The notes under the pieces were generated by a model. The model was not told where the DNA came from, did no database searches, and worked only from the letters and a program-made list of their open reading frames with translations. Both the position numbers and the translations under genes were made by a program. Positions 5,579 through 27,587 of a DNA stretch of 30,726 bases are shown here, one piece after another (position 1 is the stretch's first letter; every line of letters begins with the position of its first letter). The stretch is from IMG/VR virus record IMGVR_UViG_3300037993_000227, positions 1 to 30,726 of that record. The stretch is one strand, 5' to 3'. This stretch comes from a virus.

Positions 5579-8500
5579 ATGGGTTTCGGCCAACCACAGC
5601 AAATCATTCAGAAGTATCATGCGATCCGCACCAACGCTGCCATCCTCGGCATCCCCATCCCCATCTTGTTCGGACAGAACCGCCTTACTGGAAAGCTGAT
5701 CTGGTACGGCGATTTCACCGCGAACAAAGCGAAGCAGCAGGGCGGCAAAGGGCTTGGCAAAGGCGGCAGCCAGTACGTCTACACCGCTTCGATCATGGCG
5801 GCGCTCTGTCATGGGCCTCTGAGTGCCCTCCTAAGTGTGTGGGACAATACCGGGCGCTTTGTCGTCCAGGGCGTCACGGAATCCTACACCGTGGGCTCGC
5901 CTTACACGTATACGCCCACCTACGCCGCTGCATTTGCGGCTGACCAGGGAGTCGCGGCAGTCACAGCCTACAGCTATTCAGGGATCAACGATTATGGCTC
6001 GCCCGGAGCGATCACGCTGGCTGGCAACACGCCAGTCGGCATGACGGCCACCACGGGCACGCCCAGCGCAGGGCAGTACAAAGTCAACCCCGCCACGGGT
6101 GTTTACACCTTTGCGAGCGCCGACGCAGGCAAGAACGTCCAGATTTCGTATGGCTTTTACCGCTACATTCTCGCAACGGAAGAACTTTCCATTGTGCCCT
6201 TTTCCGGTCCCTACACCGTCACGGTGCAGAACTCGGCTACCTTCAACAGCGACCTTGGCGTGAAGTATTACCCCGGAGGGAATGGATTTGTCAAAATCTC
6301 CAGCGGCACGCCCACGGTCGGACAGTACAAAGTCAGTGCTGGCGTCTATACCTTTGCGGCAGCCGATACAGGGCAGGGAATTGTCATCAATTACCAATAT
6401 GCTGACCCAAACACGGACAACAACGCGCCCAGTTCGATCAATCTGACGCTCATCGGCGGTGGGCAAGGTCAGTCGCCGTGGTCCTACCTGACCTCGAAGC
6501 ATCCATCACAAGCGCTGGGATACACGCAACTGGCGATGATCGCATCGTCCCAGCTCTATCTTGGCTATTCGCCGGAACTTCCCAACTACAACTATGAGGT
6601 CGCTGGGGCCTATCAAGTCGGCGGCGGCATCCTCGACGCGAATCCCGCCGACTGCATCACGGCGATTCTTTCTGATCCTGGCTACGGCATCGGATTTCCA
6701 CTCGCCAGCATCGGCGATCTCACGCTCGCGCGAAAATGCTGGACCGCCAATTCGTTCTTTATTTCCCCGGTTCTGGAAAACCAGCAATCCACCGCCAGCG
6801 TAATCGGCGAATGGCTGGAAGCGGGCATGGTCGGGGCCTACTGGTCCGAAGGGCTGCTCAAGTTTGTTCCTTACTGCGATACCTCGGCGGTGGGGAACGG
6901 CGTGCTCTATCAGCCTTCAACAACACCAGTGGCCGGTCTCACTGATAGCGATTTCCTGGTAGACGATAAGGGCGAAGACCCCGTGAAGGTCACGCGAACG
7001 CCTTACATGGACGCTTACAACCGCGTGCCGGTATCTTATTCGGCGCGGGTGAACGATTATAACCCCGAAGTGGTCTATGAACAGGACGATGCCTCGATTC
7101 AGCGCTACGGTTTGCGGAGCGAAGATTCGCAATCCTGGGACTTCATCACGACTTTGCTGGCTGCGCAATACGCGGCTTCCATGCGGCTGCAGCGCAACGT
7201 CTACATCCGCAACACCTACGAGTTCCGCCTTCCTTCTTCCTTCGCGTTCCTCGAACCGATGGATGTCGTCACAATCAACGATTCGATACTGGGCCTAAAC
7301 GCCGCGCCAGTGCGCATCCAAAAGATTGAAGACGACCCGGAAAAGGGTTTGTCCATCGTGGCGGAAGACTTCATCTGGGGCGCGGCTGCGCCGGCTTACA
7401 ACCCCAAGGACACGAACAATCCGCCACCGCCTCTGCCTGGACAGGAAGATCCCGGCAACACGAGTGCGGTAATCTTCGAGGCTCCCTCGCGCCTAGGTCT
7501 GCAGCAAGGCAATATGCTGTTCGGCTTCGTGAACGGCTCCAACGAAAACTGGGGCGGCTGCCACGTCTGGGTGTCATTCGACGGCACTAATTACCAGCTT
7601 CAGGAGACGGTGAACTTCCCGGCGCGCATGGGCACGCTGGTTGCGAATCTGGCCAGTTACGGCGGCGCGAACCCTGACACGGGACATACACTCGGCGTGG
7701 CCATGACCGACAACACGCCGCTCTCCAGCACATCGCCGACCGGCGCGGCATCCAACGTCACGCTCTCAGCTATTGTTAGCGCCGGTCCAGTTCTCGAACT
7801 TCTGAGTTACCAGACAGCAACCCTTGTCGCTGACCAGCAGTACAACCTGACCACGCTCTACCGCGGTATCTACGGCACCACACCTGGTGCGCACGTCACC
7901 GGCGACCTGTTCGCGCGACTGGACGAAGCATCGTTCACGTTCCAGTTCGATCCGACCTACGTCGGAAAGACCATCTGGTACAAATTCACTTCGTTCAACC
8001 TGCTGGGCCAGAACGAACAGTTGCTCTCCAATGTGACGGCTTATTCCTTCACCCTGGCGGGCACGGTGGGCTCAATCGCACTCGACACCGGCGCACTGAA
8101 CATCATGGCGCCGGGCTACGCTAGCTACCAGCCGCTGACGAATCCGCTGACGGCAACGGATGCCGGCTCGAATGCGACGATCAGCATTGCGGCCTTCACG
8201 ATGCAGCTCACGGGCCATGCAAATATCAGCCTGAACTCAGGCTCCATCACGGCCCTTGCTTACAACACGTTGTACTGGGTCTATTACGACGATCCGAACT
8301 TGACCGGCGGCTCAGTGACATACCAAGCGACGACGACGAAGGCCACGGCGCACACCGGCGTCGGGCGCTTCTTCGTCGGTTCGATTGTGACCCCGCCATC
8401 GGGTGGGGCGCCGACGACTGGCAACGGAGACGGAGGAGTCGGAAGCGCTGGCGGGACAGTTACGGGCGGACCTGGCACACAGGTCTACACGACCGCGGGC

Positions 8501-21294: not shown

Positions 21295-21942
21295 ATGCAA
21301 AGGGCAGCCATCTATGTCAGGACGAGCACACCGGACCAAAATCCGGGGATGCAGCTTGCTGAACTTCGATTGTTCGCGGAGAGAAGGGGCTGGCAAATTG
21401 CAAGTGAGTACCTGGACCTAGGAGTTTCTGGGGCAAAGGAAAAGCGGCCAGAATTGAATCGCCTAATGGCTGATGCTGCCCGCAGAAAAATAGATGTCAT
21501 CGCGGTCTGGAGATTCGACCGTTTCGCACGCAGCCTCAAGCATTTGGTATCTGCACTTGCAGACTTCAACGCCTTGGGAGTTGATTTCGTTTCGCTGACG
21601 GAAGGAATGGACACTTCAACTCCCAGCGGAAAAGTTTTATTCGCCGTCGTAGGGGCGATGGCAGAATTTGAACACGATTTGATTTCCGAGCGCGTCAAGG
21701 CTGGCCTTCGTCACGCTGTCGCCAAAGGGACAAAGCTAGGACGTCCAAGAAACTGTGTTGACGGAGAAAAAGCTGCCACCTTGCATGCTAGTGGGAAATC
21801 ATGGCGAAAGATCGCACGGCAAATGGGTTGCTCTGCGCGAACGGCTAGGAGGGCTTCGGTAGTTTTCGATACAGAAAATGAAGCAGTTATTCAATCCGAA
21901 TCGCACACATGTGCGGAATGTCCAGTTGAGGTAGGTGCTTGA
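21295..21942 (+). CDS. Small serine recombinase (resolvase/invertase type)
   Basis: This 215-residue enzyme has the resolvase catalytic domain: YVRTSTPDQNPGMQ with the catalytic Ser11 and Arg9, then WRFDRFARS with active-site Arg residues. EFEHDLISERVKAGLRHA is the long helix. The C-terminus holds a helix-turn-helix (SWRKIARQMGCSARTARR). It lacks the large C-terminal domains of phage serine integrases, so by length it is a resolvase or invertase. It could invert a segment, resolve multimers or act as the phage's only recombinase; no inversion sites are evident. It abuts the next gene by one base. Confidence 0.85.
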   Translation: MQRAAIYVRTSTPDQNPGMQLAELRLFAERRGWQIASEYLDLGVSGAKEKRPELNRLMADAARRKIDVIAVWRFDRFARSLKHLVSALADFNALGVDFVSLTEGMDTSTPSGKVLFAVVGAMAEFEHDLISERVKAGLRHAVAKGTKLGRPRNCVDGEKAATLHASGKSWRKIARQMGCSARTARRASVVFDTENEAVIQSESHTCAECPVEVGA

Positions 21943-22118
21943 TGGCTGCCCGTCTCATCTGCGGGATCTGCGAACAGACGCTGCGAACAGCACCAGGCCG
22001 CGGCGTCGTGTTCGTGCTCTGTGACCACTGCCGCGAGGAACTGAAAGCGGAAGCGCGCGTGGGCCCAGTGTACGCGAAACTGGAGACGCTGCGCCGGCCG
22101 GCAGAAAGAGCAGCATGA
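21942..22118 (+). CDS. 58-residue zinc-ribbon protein
   Basis: The start overlaps the recombinase stop (TGATG) and the end overlaps the next gene as ATGA. CGIC (residues 7-10) and CDHC (27-30) form a CxxC...CxxC zinc site, followed by a charged helix. The gene is below the usual size cut-offs. Its two precise overlaps argue that it is real. Function unknown. Confidence 0.65.
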   Translation: MAARLICGICEQTLRTAPGRGVVFVLCDHCREELKAEARVGPVYAKLETLRRPAERAA

Positions 22119-22420
22119 GAAGGAAATCGCCCATGCAATTGAGTCTCGAGTATCTGAATAAGCTCGGCTTCACTTGTCAGGTAGTCGAGAAGTGGATTCC
22201 ACGCGCGAACGTGCGGAAAGACCTATTTGATTTCGGGGACATTTGCGCCTACAAACCACAGGTGGCGATTGTGTTGGTGCAAACGACTTCATGGAGCAAT
22301 TTTGCCGCGCGGAAAGCGAAGATTCTCGCGAGTCCTCATCACTATGGATGGAAAAGCTGCGGCGGCAGAATCTTTCTGCACGCACGGGGCGACAAAGGAT
22401 TGCGCGAAGAAGAGCTGTGA
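22115..22420 (+). CDS. Putative small PD-(D/E)XK-like nuclease
   Basis: This 101-residue protein carries RKDLFDFGDICAYKPQVAIV and LVQTTSWSNFAARKAKI. This resembles the short phage nuclease family with a D...D...QxT core related to VRR-NUC and Holliday junction resolvases. Asp in DFGD would be a metal ligand and Gln in VQTTS replaces the usual Glu-x-Lys. Whether it still cuts DNA is not certain. It overlaps the zinc-ribbon gene by ATGA. Proteins of this type often accompany phage replication genes. Confidence 0.55.
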   Translation: MRRKSPMQLSLEYLNKLGFTCQVVEKWIPRANVRKDLFDFGDICAYKPQVAIVLVQTTSWSNFAARKAKILASPHHYGWKSCGGRIFLHARGDKGLREEEL

Positions 22421-22456
22421 GCCAGCGGAGGAGCCGCAAGGCTGAGGAAGGAAGCC

Positions 22457-22939
22457 ATGAATCTCATTGAAGCGTTGCGGGAGTTGGTGGACAACCTTGT
22501 GAATGTGACTACCTGTTCAAAAAGCGCACGGGAAATGTTGCGTAAAGATGCCCACAGTAAATTGGAATCCCTTCTCGCCGCGCATCCCGTGGGGCTAAGT
22601 GAGGAGCAGGTGCCATTTGAAAAGTGGTCACACGCTGTTCTCGTAGCTGAAGGATTGGCAGATTGGAAGGTCGAAGAAGGCGAGCCCTATTGCTGGCTAA
22701 AAAGCAGAACGATTCATTTTCGCGGTGAAGATCCCGTGCTGTTTCTTCACGAAGTCGCCCACGCACTTTATCCCCACATGGAACCAGCGGTAGAAGGCCA
22801 TGACCCAAATTACTATCATGGCGGGAATTGGGCAGCGACATTCGGGAAATTGGTCACTAAGTACATGGGCCTGAACGTCCTTCTTAGCGATTCAGTACTC
22901 AAACAGATTACTGGGCCAGCGGGGAGCAGCACGCGGTAG
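22457..22939 (+). CDS. HExxH metallopeptidase-like protein
   Basis: This 160-residue protein has an HEVAH zinc motif at residues 98-102 (FLHEVAHALYPHM). A downstream H121 in YHGGNWAATFGKLV may act as the third zinc ligand, as in SprT-like folds. The N-terminal half is mixed helix, and RTIHFRGEDPV is a strand before the motif. Substrate is unknown. The ATG at 22457 follows GGAAGGAAG. Its last bases overlap part of the repeated leader described for the next gene. Confidence 0.6.
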   Translation: MNLIEALRELVDNLVNVTTCSKSAREMLRKDAHSKLESLLAAHPVGLSEEQVPFEKWSHAVLVAEGLADWKVEEGEPYCWLKSRTIHFRGEDPVLFLHEVAHALYPHMEPAVEGHDPNYYHGGNWAATFGKLVTKYMGLNVLLSDSVLKQITGPAGSSTR

Positions 22940-22978
22940 GATTTGCGCCTGCTCCCTTAGCCTAAAAGGGGAATGACG
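22922..22978 (+). promoter_or_regulatory. Repeated leader element, copy C
   Basis: GGGAGC (22922-22927) can pair with GCTCCC (22951-22956), followed by TTAGCCTAAAAGGGG and the start at 22979. CCCTT next to the 3' arm can instead pair with AAGGG of the ribosome site. Its 5' arm lies in the end of the preceding gene. Copies A and B are at 24001 and 24450. Confidence 0.6.
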
Positions 22979-23278
22979 ATGAGCGCATTTTTTCGCAACA
23001 AGAACGATGGCAGTGTTTACGAGGCGTTGCAATGGGATGGCAAAGACCCGGAGTTTTTCTCTGAGTGGGCCGCAGGAGTAGCCACCTTCGATGTGACCGG
23101 CAATCTGCATCTGAAGTTTATAGATGGCAGCAATCCTATCGTGCCGCTGGGCTATTGGGTGAAAAAAGATGGCGACAATCTGTTCGGCATGTGGGAGCCG
23201 GAAGTATTCGCGCTGAACTTTGAGCCAATATGGTTTGCTGGTAATCCAATCGCTGACCAGAGAAAGGGAATGACGTGA
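22979..23278 (+). CDS. Small unknown protein behind leader copy C
   Basis: This 99-residue protein starts at the ATG at 22979, the second of two ATGs, because AAAAGGGG is then at normal distance; the first ATG at 22973 is too close. The protein is aromatic-rich and beta-like, with YEALQWDG, then LGYWVKKDGDNLFGMWEPEV. Its last four bases overlap a GTG that starts a broken zinc-ribbon frame. No family recognised. Confidence 0.65.
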   Translation: MSAFFRNKNDGSVYEALQWDGKDPEFFSEWAAGVATFDVTGNLHLKFIDGSNPIVPLGYWVKKDGDNLFGMWEPEVFALNFEPIWFAGNPIADQRKGMT

Positions 23279-23331
23279 AACTGCCGTGTCCTGACTGTGG
23301 TAGTCCCACAAAAGTTGTGGATTCGCGGTAG
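23275..23331 (+). pseudogene. Broken NrdR-like zinc-ribbon gene
   Basis: A GTG overlapping the previous stop opens a frame reading MKLPCPDCGSPTKVVDSR, then a TAG at 23329-23331. The sequence matches the start of an NrdR-type zinc ribbon. The same frame continues past the stop with a basic stretch like the RRRR region of that family. The second Cys pair is missing. The gene appears truncated, and the downstream frame was reused for the gene at 23383. The 18-residue peptide may still be made. Confidence 0.5.
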
Positions 23332-23382
23332 CGGATAAAGCGTCATGTGCTGCGCCGGCGCGGGGCCGAGCGGAGGTGGGAA

Positions 23383-23601
23383 GTGAGCAACTATCCAACT
23401 CAGATGATGACCGCAGAACCTCTCAGATGCCACGGAAATTATCACATTTTCACGAGTCCATGCTATTTATACTGTCAATGTGGTTGGATGCGACAACCGT
23501 ATCGTGAGCACCAACCATTCCCCGCGTACAACAAGCATGACCTTACGTTGGAGCGTTCCGCGCCGAGCGGGAAGGCGAAGGAGAGTGGCGATGAGTCTTG
23601 A
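23383..23601 (+). CDS. Small Cys-rich protein
   Basis: The GTG at 23383 with GGAGG upstream gives 72 residues. CHGNYHIFTSPCYLYCQCGW has four Cys and two His that could hold a zinc ion. The C-terminal tail (ERSAPSGKAKESGDES) is encoded by one copy of the duplicated cassette at 23555-23581. The frame continues that of the broken NrdR-like gene upstream. It overlaps the next gene start by 11 bases. Confidence 0.5.
   Translation: MSNYPTQMMTAEPLRCHGNYHIFTSPCYLYCQCGWMRQPYREHQPFPAYNKHDLTLERSAPSGKAKESGDES
23555..23581 (+). repeat. Duplicated ribosome-site cassette of 27 bases, copy 1
   Basis: The 27 bases at 23555-23581, starting GTTCCGCGCCGAGCGGGAAG and ending GCGAAGG, are repeated perfectly at 23729-23755. 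Each copy is followed after 9 bases by an ATG (23591, 23765). Confidence 0.85.
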
Positions 23602-23950
23602 ATGCAGCGAATGTGAACGAGATTTGCGTGGGGGACATGACCCTTCATGTTCGCGGTACATTAAGCCATGTCCAAAGTGTGAAGCAGAAGAATGCGACGA
23701 AGAATGCAATTGTGAATGCCATACGAAGGTTCCGCGCCGAGCGGGAAGGCGAAGGGAGGGTGAGATGGTTAGACTTGGTGACTTTTCGCTAGGATGGACT
23801 CAGTGGTACCCATTCACTCATTATCTTGGTAAAGAAAAACTCTTTGAGGGGAAACGACGGGATTTGATATTGCAGCATCACGGGAAAACATACCTTCATC
23901 GAGTGCTTACGAGCCAAAGGCAAGCGAAGGAGCAGGGCGAGAGGGATTGA
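23591..23950 (+). CDS. Cys-rich protein joined in frame to a second small domain
   Basis: The ATG at 23591 gives 119 residues. The first 50 contain about eleven Cys (CSECERD, CPKCEAEECDEECNCECH), probably a metal-binding cluster. Residues 47-57 are a basic stretch read through a second copy of the 27-base cassette. Residue 59 is the ATG at 23765, which begins a separate-looking 61-residue domain (MVRLGDFSLGWTQWYPF). The two domains are in the same frame with no stop between them, so this looks like two neighbouring cassette genes that became fused. The larger frame to the left has no reason to be used. Confidence 0.6.
   Translation: MSLECSECERDLRGGHDPSCSRYIKPCPKCEAEECDEECNCECHTKVPRRAGRRREGEMVRLGDFSLGWTQWYPFTHYLGKEKLFEGKRRDLILQHHGKTYLHRVLTSQRQAKEQGERD
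23729..23755 (+). repeat. Duplicated ribosome-site cassette of 27 bases, copy 2
   Basis: Perfect copy of 23555-23581, here inside the gene at 23591 and 9 bases before the internal ATG at 23765. Confidence 0.85.
23765..23950 (+). CDS. Internal start product of the fused gene
   Basis: The ATG at 23765 has the same cassette and the same distance as the start at 23591. A separate 61-residue protein (MVRLGDFSLGWTQWYPFTHY...) may therefore be made from the same frame. The C-terminus (AKEQGERD) is encoded by the front of leader element A. Confidence 0.5.
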   Translation: MVRLGDFSLGWTQWYPFTHYLGKEKLFEGKRRDLILQHHGKTYLHRVLTSQRQAKEQGERD

Positions 23951-24120
23951 GTTCTGTAGTGGCTGCGAGTCGTGGGTAGAATTACGACGAGTCCGATTTG
24001 CAAGCGCGGCCAGTCATTACGGAGGGGCAAGGGGAGTCGTAAGGCGTTAGCCGAGTGTACCGACAGGTATCGCGGCTCCCTTTAGCCTAGCGAGCAGGGG
24101 CGGGGCACAAGGGAGGGATA
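23934..24120 (+). ncRNA. Repeated structured leader element, copy A
   Basis: A 23-base block at 23945-23967 (GATTGAGTTCTGTAGTGGCT and 3 more) recurs at 24312. It is followed by a stem GTCGT (23969-23973)/ACGAC (23984-23988). Then CAAGCGCGGCCAG (24001-24013) and GGGAGTCG (24032-24039) pairing with CGGCTCCC (24073-24080), then AGCCTAG (24084-24090). CTCCCTT (24076-24082) can instead pair with AAGGGAG (24109-24115), which is the ribosome site of the gene at 24121. No coding frame was found here. Confidence 0.6.
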
Positions 24121-24300
24121 ATGGCTATCAAATACATTTATGAATGCGAAGCAGGGCATAAAACGATGATTGTGGCAGAGGTGAACCTTGTTGGCACAGA
24201 GGCTCCACCAACGGTGGAATGTCAAGAACCTAAGTGTAAGAAAGAGGCAAGAGTCGTGGGAGCACAAAATCATCCAGTGTGGGCTGATACGCAAGAGTGA
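24121..24300 (+). CDS. 59-residue Cys/His protein behind leader copy A
   Basis: The ATG at 24121 follows AAGGGAGGG and gives 59 residues. CEAGH near residue 9 and CQEPKCKK near residue 34 give Cys/His pairs of a zinc-ribbon type seen in short phage and FmdB-like proteins. The gene is too short for common cut-offs. Its TGA at 24298-24300 is followed directly by leader copy B. Confidence 0.6.
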   Translation: MAIKYIYECEAGHKTMIVAEVNLVGTEAPPTVECQEPKCKKEARVVGAQNHPVWADTQE

Positions 24301-24546
24301 GCGGGGAGCGAGATTGAGTTCTGCGGTGGCTGCGGCGTGGAAGGACACGCCTGAGGTCAATTGGAGAAGAGGCTGAAATGGGAGTTCTCCACCGGCCCAC
24401 TTAGAAGAAAGGGAACTACCGGGACGCAAACTCTCAGCAGAGCCGCTATCAAGCGCGGCCAGCCATCGCAGGGAAGGCGAGGGAGTCGTGTGATGTTCGG
24501 CAAGCAGTAGCCGAGCGGCTCCCCTCAGCCTAGAAGGGAAATGAAG
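24301..24546 (+). ncRNA. Repeated structured leader element, copy B
   Basis: The block at 24312-24334 matches copy A with two changes. A following stem has different sequence but the same place: GGCGTG (24334-24339)/CACGCC (24346-24351). CAAGCGCGGCCAG is at 24450-24462. GGGAGTCG (24481-24488) pairs with CGGCTCCC (24516-24523), then AGCCTAG (24527-24533) and the ribosome site AAGGG. CCCCTC can pair with GAAGGG of that site with one mismatch. No convincing gene lies in this 246-base stretch. Confidence 0.6.
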
Positions 24547-24774
24547 ATGAGAGAGAAAATGGTGACGATTACTTTTACACCTAAAGAATTGAACTATCTT
24601 GATAGAGCTTTAGTAGCCGACATCAAGTCGTTGGAGTTAGACCCTCTACGGGATGCGGGGAATGTCCCGCACATACGGAGATTTCAGAAAGCACTGACCA
24701 ACAAAATTCGCAGAGCACGCGGTGGGGAACCCCATAACTGGAAAAGTACAATTGCGCGGTGGCGCAAGCCATGA
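24547..24774 (+). CDS. Small basic protein behind leader copy B
   Basis: The ATG at 24547 is chosen over the one at 24541 because the AAGGG ribosome site is then correctly spaced, as at 22979. The protein is 75 residues, basic and mainly helical (TPKELNYLDRALVADIKSLE, then RRFQKALTNKIRRARGG). It may bind nucleic acid. The stop overlaps a 16-residue hydrophobic frame as ATGA. Confidence 0.6.
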   Translation: MREKMVTITFTPKELNYLDRALVADIKSLELDPLRDAGNVPHIRRFQKALTNKIRRARGGEPHNWKSTIARWRKP

Positions 24775-24821
24775 AGCTCTTGCTGCAAATTCTCGGGGCT
24801 GTTGCGCTGGTGCTGCTCTAA
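24771..24821 (+). CDS. 16-residue hydrophobic micropeptide
   Basis: The frame reads MKLLLQILGAVALVLL and stops at TAA. It starts by ATGA overlap with the previous gene and ends at the base before the next ATG at 24822, so it fills the gap exactly. It would be a single short membrane helix. No family is known to me; position is the main evidence. Confidence 0.45.
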   Translation: MKLLLQILGAVALVLL

Positions 24822-25034
24822 ATGCAACACGCCACCAAATGTCCGGCCTGCGCTCATCCAGCATCGAGCACCCTCGATAATACTTACAAGGAACGCGCGG
24901 ATGTCGTGCGGCGCCGCCGGCAATGCAAAAAGTGTGGCAAGCGGTTCACCACCTACGAGATCGCGGCCGGAAGATTGAAGTCCCTCATCGAAGCCCTCAA
25001 AGTGATAAAAAAACTAAAACATGCCAAGATATAG
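24822..25034 (+). CDS. NrdR-like zinc-ribbon protein
   Basis: This 70-residue protein has the zinc ribbon of NrdR: CPACAH at the start, then VVRRRRQCKKCGKRFTTYE. True NrdR proteins are twice this long and add an ATP-cone domain; here only the DNA-binding ribbon and a basic tail (VIKKLKHAKI) remain. Phages carry such truncated forms. It may bind NrdR-box-like DNA or act as a general ribbon. A broken relative lies at 23275. Confidence 0.75.
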   Translation: MQHATKCPACAHPASSTLDNTYKERADVVRRRRQCKKCGKRFTTYEIAAGRLKSLIEALKVIKKLKHAKI

Positions 25035-25052
25035 CGATATTCACGTTTCCGC

Positions 25053-25082
25053 TTGACGCTCCTAGTACTCCTACCCCATAAC
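25053..25082 (+). promoter_or_regulatory. Possible promoter in the gap before the terminase group
   Basis: TTGACG at 25053-25058 is followed after 18 bases by CATAAC at 25077-25082. It lies in a 134-base gap with no gene. The match is moderate. Confidence 0.35.
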
Positions 25083-25168
25083 TCAGTTATCTTCTGACGC
25101 TGCGTCGCCTTGCCGCCCAGCATCATGCAGGGCCAAGCTTGGACTGATTCGGCGTCTCTAAAAATATC

Positions 25169-25549
25169 TTGTCAGCGAAGCTCTACTGTCTCATCCCGCA
25201 CGATTGGACGCTCGCCACACTCAACCTTCATACCTGCTCTGACAATTCCCACGCGCATCTTTCCCGCCAGCAAGCCTCTGATTACACGTCCGTCTGTCTC
25301 GTGGAAATCCTGCGAGAGCCCTTGCGCCGCACAAAACTGAAGGGCGTGCTGCGTCTGATCCGCATGATCTCTGTTCGCGGTTTGAGTGCGCGCGTTGGTG
25401 AGCCCTTGGCCCTTGCGCTCGCTGACAAATATCACCGTGACTGGGCCTCCACCATGCTCTCAGCTATCCAATGCCGACGCGAAACTGCAAGCACTCCGGG
25501 TGTCACCGCCTCGCCTTATCCGGCCACACCCTCTGCTATGTCCATCTAG
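25169..25549 (+). CDS. Unknown protein upstream of the zinc-finger and terminase genes
   Basis: From the TTG at 25169 this open frame gives 126 residues. It contains DNSHAHLSRQQASDY and a helical region (LKGVLRLIRMISVRGLSARV, then LALALADKYHRDWASTMLS) that reads like real protein. The last 25 residues are low complexity and overlap the next gene, and the start codon is weak. A minus-strand frame at 25435-25172 competes but lacks a ribosome site. I favour the plus frame because it matches the direction of its neighbours. Confidence 0.45.
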   Translation: MSAKLYCLIPHDWTLATLNLHTCSDNSHAHLSRQQASDYTSVCLVEILREPLRRTKLKGVLRLIRMISVRGLSARVGEPLALALADKYHRDWASTMLSAIQCRRETASTPGVTASPYPATPSAMSI

Positions 25550-25759: not shown

Positions 25760-26191
25760 GTGACTGAAAAAAAAAGACGTTACAACATTGAAAACCTCAA
25801 ATCGTGGAAGCCAGGGCAAAGCGGCAACCCGAATGGCTACTCGCGCAAGCGGCGCATCTATGACAGGCTGTGCGAGATCCTCGACCGGAAGCGCGGCGAC
25901 ACGACGATTGAAGAAGCGCTCTGCGAAGCGGCAGTCGTTGAAGGACTCAACGGCAGCATCCAGCATTTCATCGCCATCCGCGACAGTATTGACGGAAAAC
26001 CTCGACAGTCCTTTGAAGTTTCAGGACCGGAAGGAAGCGCAGTCAGCTTCAATCTTGGCGACATCGACGGCAAAATCGCGGAATATCTCGGACGCGGCCG
26101 CAGTCGCGTATCTGCTTCCCGAGGAAAAAACAGAACTTCTGCAACTTCTGGAACGCCGCGAGTTCCTAAAACAACAGAGAGAACTTCGTGA
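25760..26191 (+). CDS. Terminase small subunit-like protein (DUF5681-type)
   Basis: The GTG at 25760 gives 143 residues. The motif SWKPGQSGNPNGYSRKRR (about 15-32) is the basic segment typical of this family, which sits beside the large terminase gene. A helical part follows (RIYDRLCEILDRKRGDTTIE). Beyond about residue 112 the sequence (GRGRSRVSASRGKNRTSATS) loses protein character and runs in a frame overlapping the terminase gene. So either its real end is earlier or the frame shifts. There is an A9 run at 25767-25775, just after the start. Confidence 0.7.
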   Translation: MTEKKRRYNIENLKSWKPGQSGNPNGYSRKRRIYDRLCEILDRKRGDTTIEEALCEAAVVEGLNGSIQHFIAIRDSIDGKPRQSFEVSGPEGSAVSFNLGDIDGKIAEYLGRGRSRVSASRGKNRTSATSGTPRVPKTTERTS

Positions 26192-27587
26192 TCTTGCATC
26201 TTTCACGCAGCAAGCGTGGCCGATTCTTGAGCCCGGAACGCCACTGAAATGGAATTGGCACCTCGATCTCATCTGCGAATACTTGACGCTGGTCAAGGAG
26301 CGTGTGTGCCGTCGCCTCATCATCAACGTTCCTCCGCAGACAATGAAGTCGCGGCTTGTGAACGTCTTCTATCCCACCTGGTCATGGAGTCAGATTCCTA
26401 CGCGGCGCTTTCTGTCCAGCTCGTATTCTGGCGAGCTGTCCGAAGGCTTCAACATCGAACGCTCGAAGCTGGTGAGTTCGGAATGGTTCCAGCGAATGTT
26501 CCCCGATCAGGTGACGCTGACGCAGGAACGCCAGGACCAGATCGAGAATGCGGTGGGCGGCCGTATGACCGCGACTTCCACTGGTGGCACGGCTACGGGG
26601 AAAGGCAGCCACGACGTGATTGTGGACGATCCGCTGAATCCGAAGCAGGCAGCCTCGGAGGTGGAACTCAAGTCCTCGAATCTTTTCTTCGACGATACCC
26701 TACGCACGCGGCTATCGGACCAGGCGACGGGTGCGTTCGTGGTCATCATGCAGCGCCTGGACATTGCGGACCTCACGGGCCATTTGACGGAAATGAATCC
26801 TGGCGAATGGACGGTCATTTCGCTGCCGATGGAGGCCGAAGATGCTGAAGAGTGGCATTTTCCTATTTCTGGTCGTGTTTATCGCCGTGCCGCTGGTGAT
26901 CTGCTGTGGCCTGCTCGCTTTCCTGAACCTGTGGTTGCGTCGCTTAGGCGTGATGTCCCGAACTATCACGGACAGTACCAACAGCGGCCAAGTCCAAAAG
27001 GCGGCGCCATCATCAAGGAAGAGTGGTGCCAGCACTTCTACAACGTCGTGCCAGATGAAAAGCAATTCGACGAAGTTATCCAGTCCTGGGATATGTCTTT
27101 TGGAAGCAAAAGCGATGAGGCGAGTTTTGTTGTTGGGCAGAAGTGGGGACGTATTGGTGCTCGAAAACTGCTACTTGATGAAGAACGACGACGCATGGAT
27201 TTCGTAGAGACGAAACAGGCACTCAAGTCTTTCTCCGCGCGCCCGCCGTTCGCACACGCCAAATACGTCGAGAACAAAGCCAACGGCCCGGCGATCATTC
27301 AGGAACTCAAAGCCACAGTGGACGGGCTGATCGACGTGCAGCCCGATGGCGACAAGACCGCGCGCATGTTCGCAGTGAGCACGGAATACCAGGCGGGCAA
27401 CGTCGAGTTTCCGGCGCCGGCCATCGCGTCATTCCCGGTGATGGACCACATCCGAGAGATCACGCGATTCCCCATGAAGCCGAACGACCGCGGCGATGCC
27501 GCGAGCCAGGCTCTGAAGATGATGCGACACAGGATGGGCATGCTGGACTACTACGAAAAGTTGGCGCGGAAAGACGAGGAAGTGTGA
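26055..27587 (+). CDS. Terminase large subunit
   Basis: From the TTG at 26055 the frame gives 510 residues, the usual size. The ATPase has a Walker A-like NVPPQTMKS, then WSWSQIPTRRFLSSSYSGEL, and a Walker B HDVIVDDPLNP. The nuclease domain has SWDMSFGSKSDEASFVVG, then VENKANGPAI and a C-terminal RGDAASQALKMM, with the acidic metal ligands of the RNase H fold. It powers DNA packaging into the head and cuts the genome. The frame is open upstream to 25788, but that part is unconvincing. No ATG or GTG lies where clear protein begins (about 26100), so the start is uncertain. Confidence 0.88.
   Translation: MATSTAKSRNISDAAAVAYLLPEEKTELLQLLERREFLKQQRELRDLASFTQQAWPILEPGTPLKWNWHLDLICEYLTLVKERVCRRLIINVPPQTMKSRLVNVFYPTWSWSQIPTRRFLSSSYSGELSEGFNIERSKLVSSEWFQRMFPDQVTLTQERQDQIENAVGGRMTATSTGGTATGKGSHDVIVDDPLNPKQAASEVELKSSNLFFDDTLRTRLSDQATGAFVVIMQRLDIADLTGHLTEMNPGEWTVISLPMEAEDAEEWHFPISGRVYRRAAGDLLWPARFPEPVVASLRRDVPNYHGQYQQRPSPKGGAIIKEEWCQHFYNVVPDEKQFDEVIQSWDMSFGSKSDEASFVVGQKWGRIGARKLLLDEERRRMDFVETKQALKSFSARPPFAHAKYVENKANGPAIIQELKATVDGLIDVQPDGDKTARMFAVSTEYQAGNVEFPAPAIASFPVMDHIREITRFPMKPNDRGDAASQALKMMRHRMGMLDYYEKLARKDEEV

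Follow-up and report, generated by a model that had tools for sequence, protein, structure and literature searches.

Leaders with conserved base pairing precede exchangeable small genes in a group of soil phages

A soil bacteriophage and two of its relatives carry, ahead of small genes, a real, unusual and small family of leaders. In its full form the leader consists of a domain closed by a long stem (P1), then a hairpin of 12 to 16 bp interrupted at one fixed place by a bulge or internal loop, and then the ribosome box. We put at about 0.5 the probability that these leaders are a family of structured sense-strand RNA whose role is that of a translation-start module, movable among the fast-changing small genes of one phage group; the claim of RNA structure as such is fairly strong.

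Genomic setting

The window, by which we mean the whole 30.7-kb stretch analysed (IMG/VR virus record IMGVR_UViG_3300037993_000227), comes from a soil bacteriophage with lambda-like tail genes and a large terminase gene at 25788-27587. By terminase identity its close relatives are the phages L003 (96%) and L004 (90%), and L005 stands at 64%. Among cellular genomes, terminase matches do not exceed about 44% identity; several come from soil Acidobacteria/Terriglobia, which gives a weak hint of the host. The window, L003 and L004 diverge most in the region 22000-25000, where flanks about 85 to 96% alike enclose small genes that have been swapped.

Directly past this variable region and ahead of the packaging genes, window positions 25046-25170 are strongly conserved (from 5539 in L003 and from 6779 in L004) and are possibly a packaging or control site. 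A serine recombinase gene of the DNA-invertase type lies at window 21295-21942, and DNA comparison finds none at the same place in L003 or L004. Within the same variable region, L003 carries at 2630-2748 three tandem noncoding copies of a 38-bp unit (CATGATTCCACGCGACGTGCCAGAGCGGCGAAACATGA).

Layout of the five leader copies

Five copies were found: A, B and C in the window, D at 5259-5355 of L003 and a diverged copy, E, at 6346-6587 of L004, the last two both ahead of an NrdR-type zinc-ribbon gene. All of them have in common a 3' hairpin immediately 5' of the ribosome site. A reading of the window made from the sequence alone (the sequence-only reading) had described GGGAG and CTCCC arms in A, B and C ahead of the genes starting at 24121, 24547 and 22979, with a T-G pair in A and B against C-G in C, and both features are present as described. 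The stem of 5 bp that it drew from them needs correction, since these arms belong to a hairpin of 12 to 16 bp, in which GGC-RAGGGAG-TCG pairs with CGG-CTCCCTY-A-GCC and whose fold z-scores against shuffled sequences are -4.8 (A), -4.2 (B), -2.4 (C), -4.6 (D) and -3.4 (E). In A, B and D the helix is interrupted by a single bulged A, and in C and E by an internal loop at the corresponding position; B also has a bulged C. The spacer between the arms measures about 20 to 38 nt. The ribosome box is typically AGCSTA-(n)AAGGGRAA, a few nucleotides ahead of the start codon.

Copies A, B and E possess a second long stem, P1 (10 to 14 bp), which closes a domain holding an inner hairpin, P2; C and D are without it. 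In A and B, P1 has 14 bp, begins about 75 to 160 nt 5' of the GGGAG arm and is the best uninterrupted helix of the leader, as good a helix being found in 9 of 300 shuffles for A and 1 of 300 for B. The second stems noted in the sequence-only reading, GTCGT/ACGAC and GGCGTG/CACGCC, do sit at the same place relative to a conserved GAGTTCTGNNGTGGCTGCG, but they are an incomplete description, being the inner hairpins of the larger P1-closed domain. The interior of P1 (about 45 to 140 nt) holds little conserved sequence, and neither its length nor its sequence is constant across A, B and E, so that no ligand core is visible in these three copies. Most genes of this phage abut or overlap, and the three long leaders occupy whole stop-to-start gaps of 170 (A), 246 (B) and about 235 nt (E).

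The interval 22922-24546, to which the three window copies had been assigned, also contains several genes; the coordinates that follow are all on the + strand. Leader A spans about 23945-24120, its 5' end overlapping the stop codon of the upstream gene (23948-23950), and comprises the P1 arms TTCTGTAGTGGCTG (23952-23965) and CAGTCATTACGGAG (24011-24024), P2 (23969-23988), a 3' hairpin of 16 bp with one bulged A (GGGCAAGGGGAGTCGT / GCGGCTCCCTTT-A-GCCT, 24025-24088) and the ribosome site AAGGGAGGG (24109-24117). It precedes a 59-aa gene (24121-24300) with several Cys and His and no family match, whose product, judged by eye, is a possible small zinc-binding protein. Leader B (about 24303-24546) spans the gap from the gene ending at 24300 to a 75-aa gene without family match (24547-24774), and contains the P1 arms TTCTGCGGTGGCTG (24319-24332) and CAGCCATCGCAGGG (24460-24473), P2 (24334-24351), the 3' hairpin AGGCGAGGGAGTCGT / GCGGCTCCCCTC-A-GCCT (24475-24531) and the ribosome site AAGGGAAA (24534-24541). 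Copy C is the 3' hairpin alone (22913-22963), overlapping the 3' end of the preceding gene (stop 22937-22939) and followed by the ribosome site AAAAGGGGAA (22964-22973) and a 99-aa gene of unknown function with a weak match to PHROG 1810 (22979-23278). In E, the P1 arms are TTGGTTGCTG and CAGCAACCAG.

Base pairs are kept through sequence change

In a stem-only alignment of P1 from A, B and E, 94% of the cells are paired and 4 of the 12 pairs have changed on both sides; this combination of pairing and double changes was matched by 4 of 500 shuffles, and slid registers gave 17 to 67% pairing. The same treatment of the 3' hairpin in all five copies yielded 92% paired cells and double changes at 4 of 13 pairs, matched by 1 of 500 shuffles. 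These counts lean toward structure, because the alignment of the arms was made by hand and left out the bulges, and they come from five copies in three related phages, with the arms of B and D identical. Within the drawn helices, every cell that is not Watson-Crick is a G-U on the coding strand (five in P1, six in the hairpin), and broken positions in the hairpin are outer ones, three in E and one in C. Since departures that are only G-U on the coding strand favour sense RNA over DNA symmetry, the compensatory and G-U changes together support a sense-strand RNA as read from these alignments. The sequence-only reading had made its proposal depend on compensatory changes in the stems of related phages, and such changes are present in both P1 and the hairpin.

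Folding of whole leaders gives modest z-scores of -1.3 to -2.5, and in the full-length fold of B the CTCCCC arm pairs instead with an upstream GGGGAGC. A coding origin of the conserved GATTGAGTTCTG..., which by eye has the look of a zinc-ribbon fragment, was considered and rejected, as in B the reading frame is lost within about 15 codons while P1 still pairs.

Predicted accessibility of the ribosome sites

The sequence-only reading had proposed that the CTCCC arm can pair either with GGGAG or with the ribosome site of the gene itself, making a bistable translation switch. This second pairing exists as letters, the longest uninterrupted runs being 7, 4, 6, 5 and 3 bp in A to E (6 bp with one mismatch in B), but it stands at background: when tried on 74 other places in the window that resemble ribosome sites, these arms form at least 5 bp at 88%, 23%, 43%, 34% and 3% of them, respectively, because a pyrimidine arm faces a purine-rich ribosome site. 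The alternative pairing is also not kept by compensatory change. Thus the simpler account that had been offered beside the switch, repeated ribosome-site cassettes with chance pairing, holds for the pairing with the ribosome site and fails for the stems.

Ensemble prediction on the full leaders gives about 2 expected pairs between the CTCCC arm and the ribosome site for A, against about 0 for each of the other four copies. The predicted openness of the ribosome site is 0.42 to 0.76 in the leaders and 0.21 to 0.73 (mean 0.49) in other genes of the phage, which is within the ordinary range or just above it. In these models the leader does not generally mask the ribosome site. Leader A has the sole site that pairs well, 7 bp between the CTCCCTT arm and AAGGGAG, and both folds are populated in the predictions, so that A alone could use this pairing; one populated leader out of five is not a conserved mechanism, and the case for a switch is weak.

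Exchange of leaders and genes

Over a stretch of about 100 nt that takes in the ribosome box, copies B and D are 75% alike, but their downstream genes are unrelated (the 75-aa gene and the NrdR-like ribbon gene), which indicates that the module moves between genes. Conversely, D and E precede orthologous ribbon genes and have different arms. The window has the box AAAGGGGAATGACG ahead of the 99-aa gene and a similar box, AGAGAAAGGGAATGACG (about 23259-23275), ahead of a broken NrdR-like gene, as if the 99-aa gene had been inserted at the box. Taken together, these patterns point to leader and gene being exchanged separately; the earlier suggestion of a cassette that spreads with its gene is right in that a repeated leader moves, and too strict in tying it to its gene.

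The broken NrdR-like zinc-ribbon gene (window 23277-23361, with an in-frame TAG) is intact in L003 and L004; in the window its ribosome box is kept and the leader hairpin is absent. L005 and L056 also have NrdR-like genes, without the leader.

Other linkers were seen in the same region. An exact 27-bp repeat, GTTCCGCGCCGAGCGGGAAGGCGAAGG, occurs at window 23555-23581 and 23729-23755, just 5' of two starts; one occurrence falls at the end of a gene and the other within a second gene, and the two are translated in different frames. In L004, a related copy ends a different gene (about 6125-6168). This repeat is a second family of swappable ribosome-site linkers. Another linker, GAGCCAGCGG...AGCCGCAAGGCT, found at window 22418-22457 and L004 4687-4712, 3' of a 101-aa gene, forms a small GCAA-loop hairpin between the stop codon and the next ribosome site.

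Searches for known families and further copies

No Rfam covariance model matched at its gathering score in the window, L003, L004 or L005, in agreement with the earlier statement that no known riboswitch or thermometer family is recognised, and a relaxed E-value gave only two chance matches, to eukaryotic families. Leader homologues were sought in viral contigs, named phages and plasmids, and 297 genomes of one phylum with patterns for the hairpin, the P1 5' side and the ribosome boxes, with neighbouring proteins and with a covariance model, and were found only in the three known phages; the additional pattern matches were chance hairpins or coding sequence. A covariance-model search, the type of check that the sequence-only reading had called for, covered the about 300 genomes of that phylum and likewise found none beyond these phages. 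The covariance model R1, built from A, B and D, scored E weakly (E-value 0.76) and missed C, so both copies are placed by position, layout and box and not by model score.

No terminator-like site (a hairpin followed by a T-run) was found at the leaders, and no tRNA or tmRNA was detected. A HEARO/IscB guide RNA, which resembles the leaders as a structured RNA of about 200 nt ahead of a gene, was rejected: there was no HEARO match here while the same Rfam search finds HEARO upstream of IscB genes as a positive control, the phage records hold no RRXRR protein, and the sequence and layout of P1 differ.

Comparison with start-linked repeats of other phages

Of the elements described so far, the SAS/ESAS of Cluster K mycobacteriophages come closest; in them a recurring ribosome box and an imperfect inverted repeat of variable spacer stand ahead of small genes. 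Their authors judged RNA pairing unsupported, because the departures between left and right halves give little support to a hairpin, and later work places SigA-like promoter hexamers in the repeats (PMC3203893; also PMC11373665, PMC12699233). Like them, the leaders combine a ribosome-site box with an imperfect inverted repeat just upstream and a variable spacer, and precede some of the small non-structural genes, from differing families, in unusually large intergenic gaps. The inverted repeat here has arms of 12 to 16 bp and a spacer of about 20 to 38 nt, where the published spacer is mostly 4 to 13 bp. The boxes are unrelated in sequence (the 13-bp GGGATAGGAGCCC there, AAGGGRAA or AAGGGAGGG here). 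In contrast to SAS/ESAS, pairs are kept here by compensatory and G-U changes, with 4 of 13 hairpin pairs doubly changed; A, B and E add the P1-closed domain; and no sigma-70-like promoter was found in 22400-25200, where 1.8 were expected, although the sigma factors of the host may differ from the sigma-70 consensus.

In Microbacterium phages, cluster EG has start-linked inverted repeats 14 to 22 bp upstream of start codons at variable right ends, and cluster EF has SAS/ESAS-like ribosome-site boxes with a linked upstream motif (PMC7302621). The leaders share these arrangements, but in EG a single short sequence recurs that is almost a perfect palindrome, whereas here the arms vary and the pairing is kept. 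The leaders are thus start-linked phage repeats, of a kind already known in actinobacterial phages, with an added RNA-level signature.

Discussion

We consider that the most likely function of the structured module would be that of an insulating, processing or protein-bound leader. The leader would fold during transcription, and its stable hairpin, preceded in the long form by the P1 domain, may shield the ribosome site from upstream mRNA and also keep it clear of ribosomes coming from the preceding gene, so that each gene swapped in would gain its own independent start. In addition, the 5' end might be cut or stabilised, or a protein might bind at the bulge. A bolder version, that the leaders are a new class of phage structured RNA, carried as a cassette from one small gene to another, unrelated one within a hypervariable region and controlling or insulating translation, possibly via a dedicated RNA-binding protein, is offered only tentatively.

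It is rather doubtful, but worth weighing, that the bulged hairpin is an operator, recognised by a putative RNA-binding protein of phage or host that switches the set of small genes together, as Com of phage Mu does at mom mRNA. The bulge or internal loop always parts the outer from the inner stem at the same place, and several very small proteins resembling zinc ribbons (NrdR-type) adjoin the leaders. The NrdR ribbon family, however, is known for DNA binding, the loops and inner sequence are not conserved, and a hairpin that does not mask the ribosome sites of B to E leaves nothing obvious to open. The likeness to Com/mom lies in an RNA hairpin near a phage start codon with a small zinc protein nearby; the mom start codon is inside the inhibitory stem, whereas start codon and ribosome site lie outside the hairpin here (PMC6483171).

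An RNA processing role, with host RNase III cutting the long stems and separating the small-gene mRNAs, appears less probable than an operator. Long irregular stems between genes, directly 5' of ribosome sites, recall the five early RNase III sites of T7, which are structured cutting signals in polycistronic early phage mRNA (PMC4858673), but the leaders are mobile between genes, their stems are shorter and cleavage is putative. Their uninterrupted stems of 9 to 14 bp are less than two helical turns.

We find it improbable that the element is only inverted-repeat DNA, spread by recombination and kept symmetrical by template switching during replication. Copies do lie at gene junctions, C and D being fused to their upstream genes near a shared GCCAGC, and other short linkers repeat at such junctions. 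DNA drift, however, should yield A-C as often as G-U on the coding strand, which is not what the helices contain, and every copy is oriented toward the downstream gene and terminates at that gene's ribosome site. The bistable switch is very improbable, since the alternative pairing, populated in the predictions for A, has about 0 expected pairs in each of the other four.

Phages constantly swap small genes, and how the newcomers obtain a working, correctly timed start is poorly understood. Start-linked repeats are known from actinobacterial phages, for which RNA pairing was considered improbable. In the present, unrelated group of soil phages, the same layout keeps its base pairs through sequence change, and an RNA-level role thereby becomes testable.
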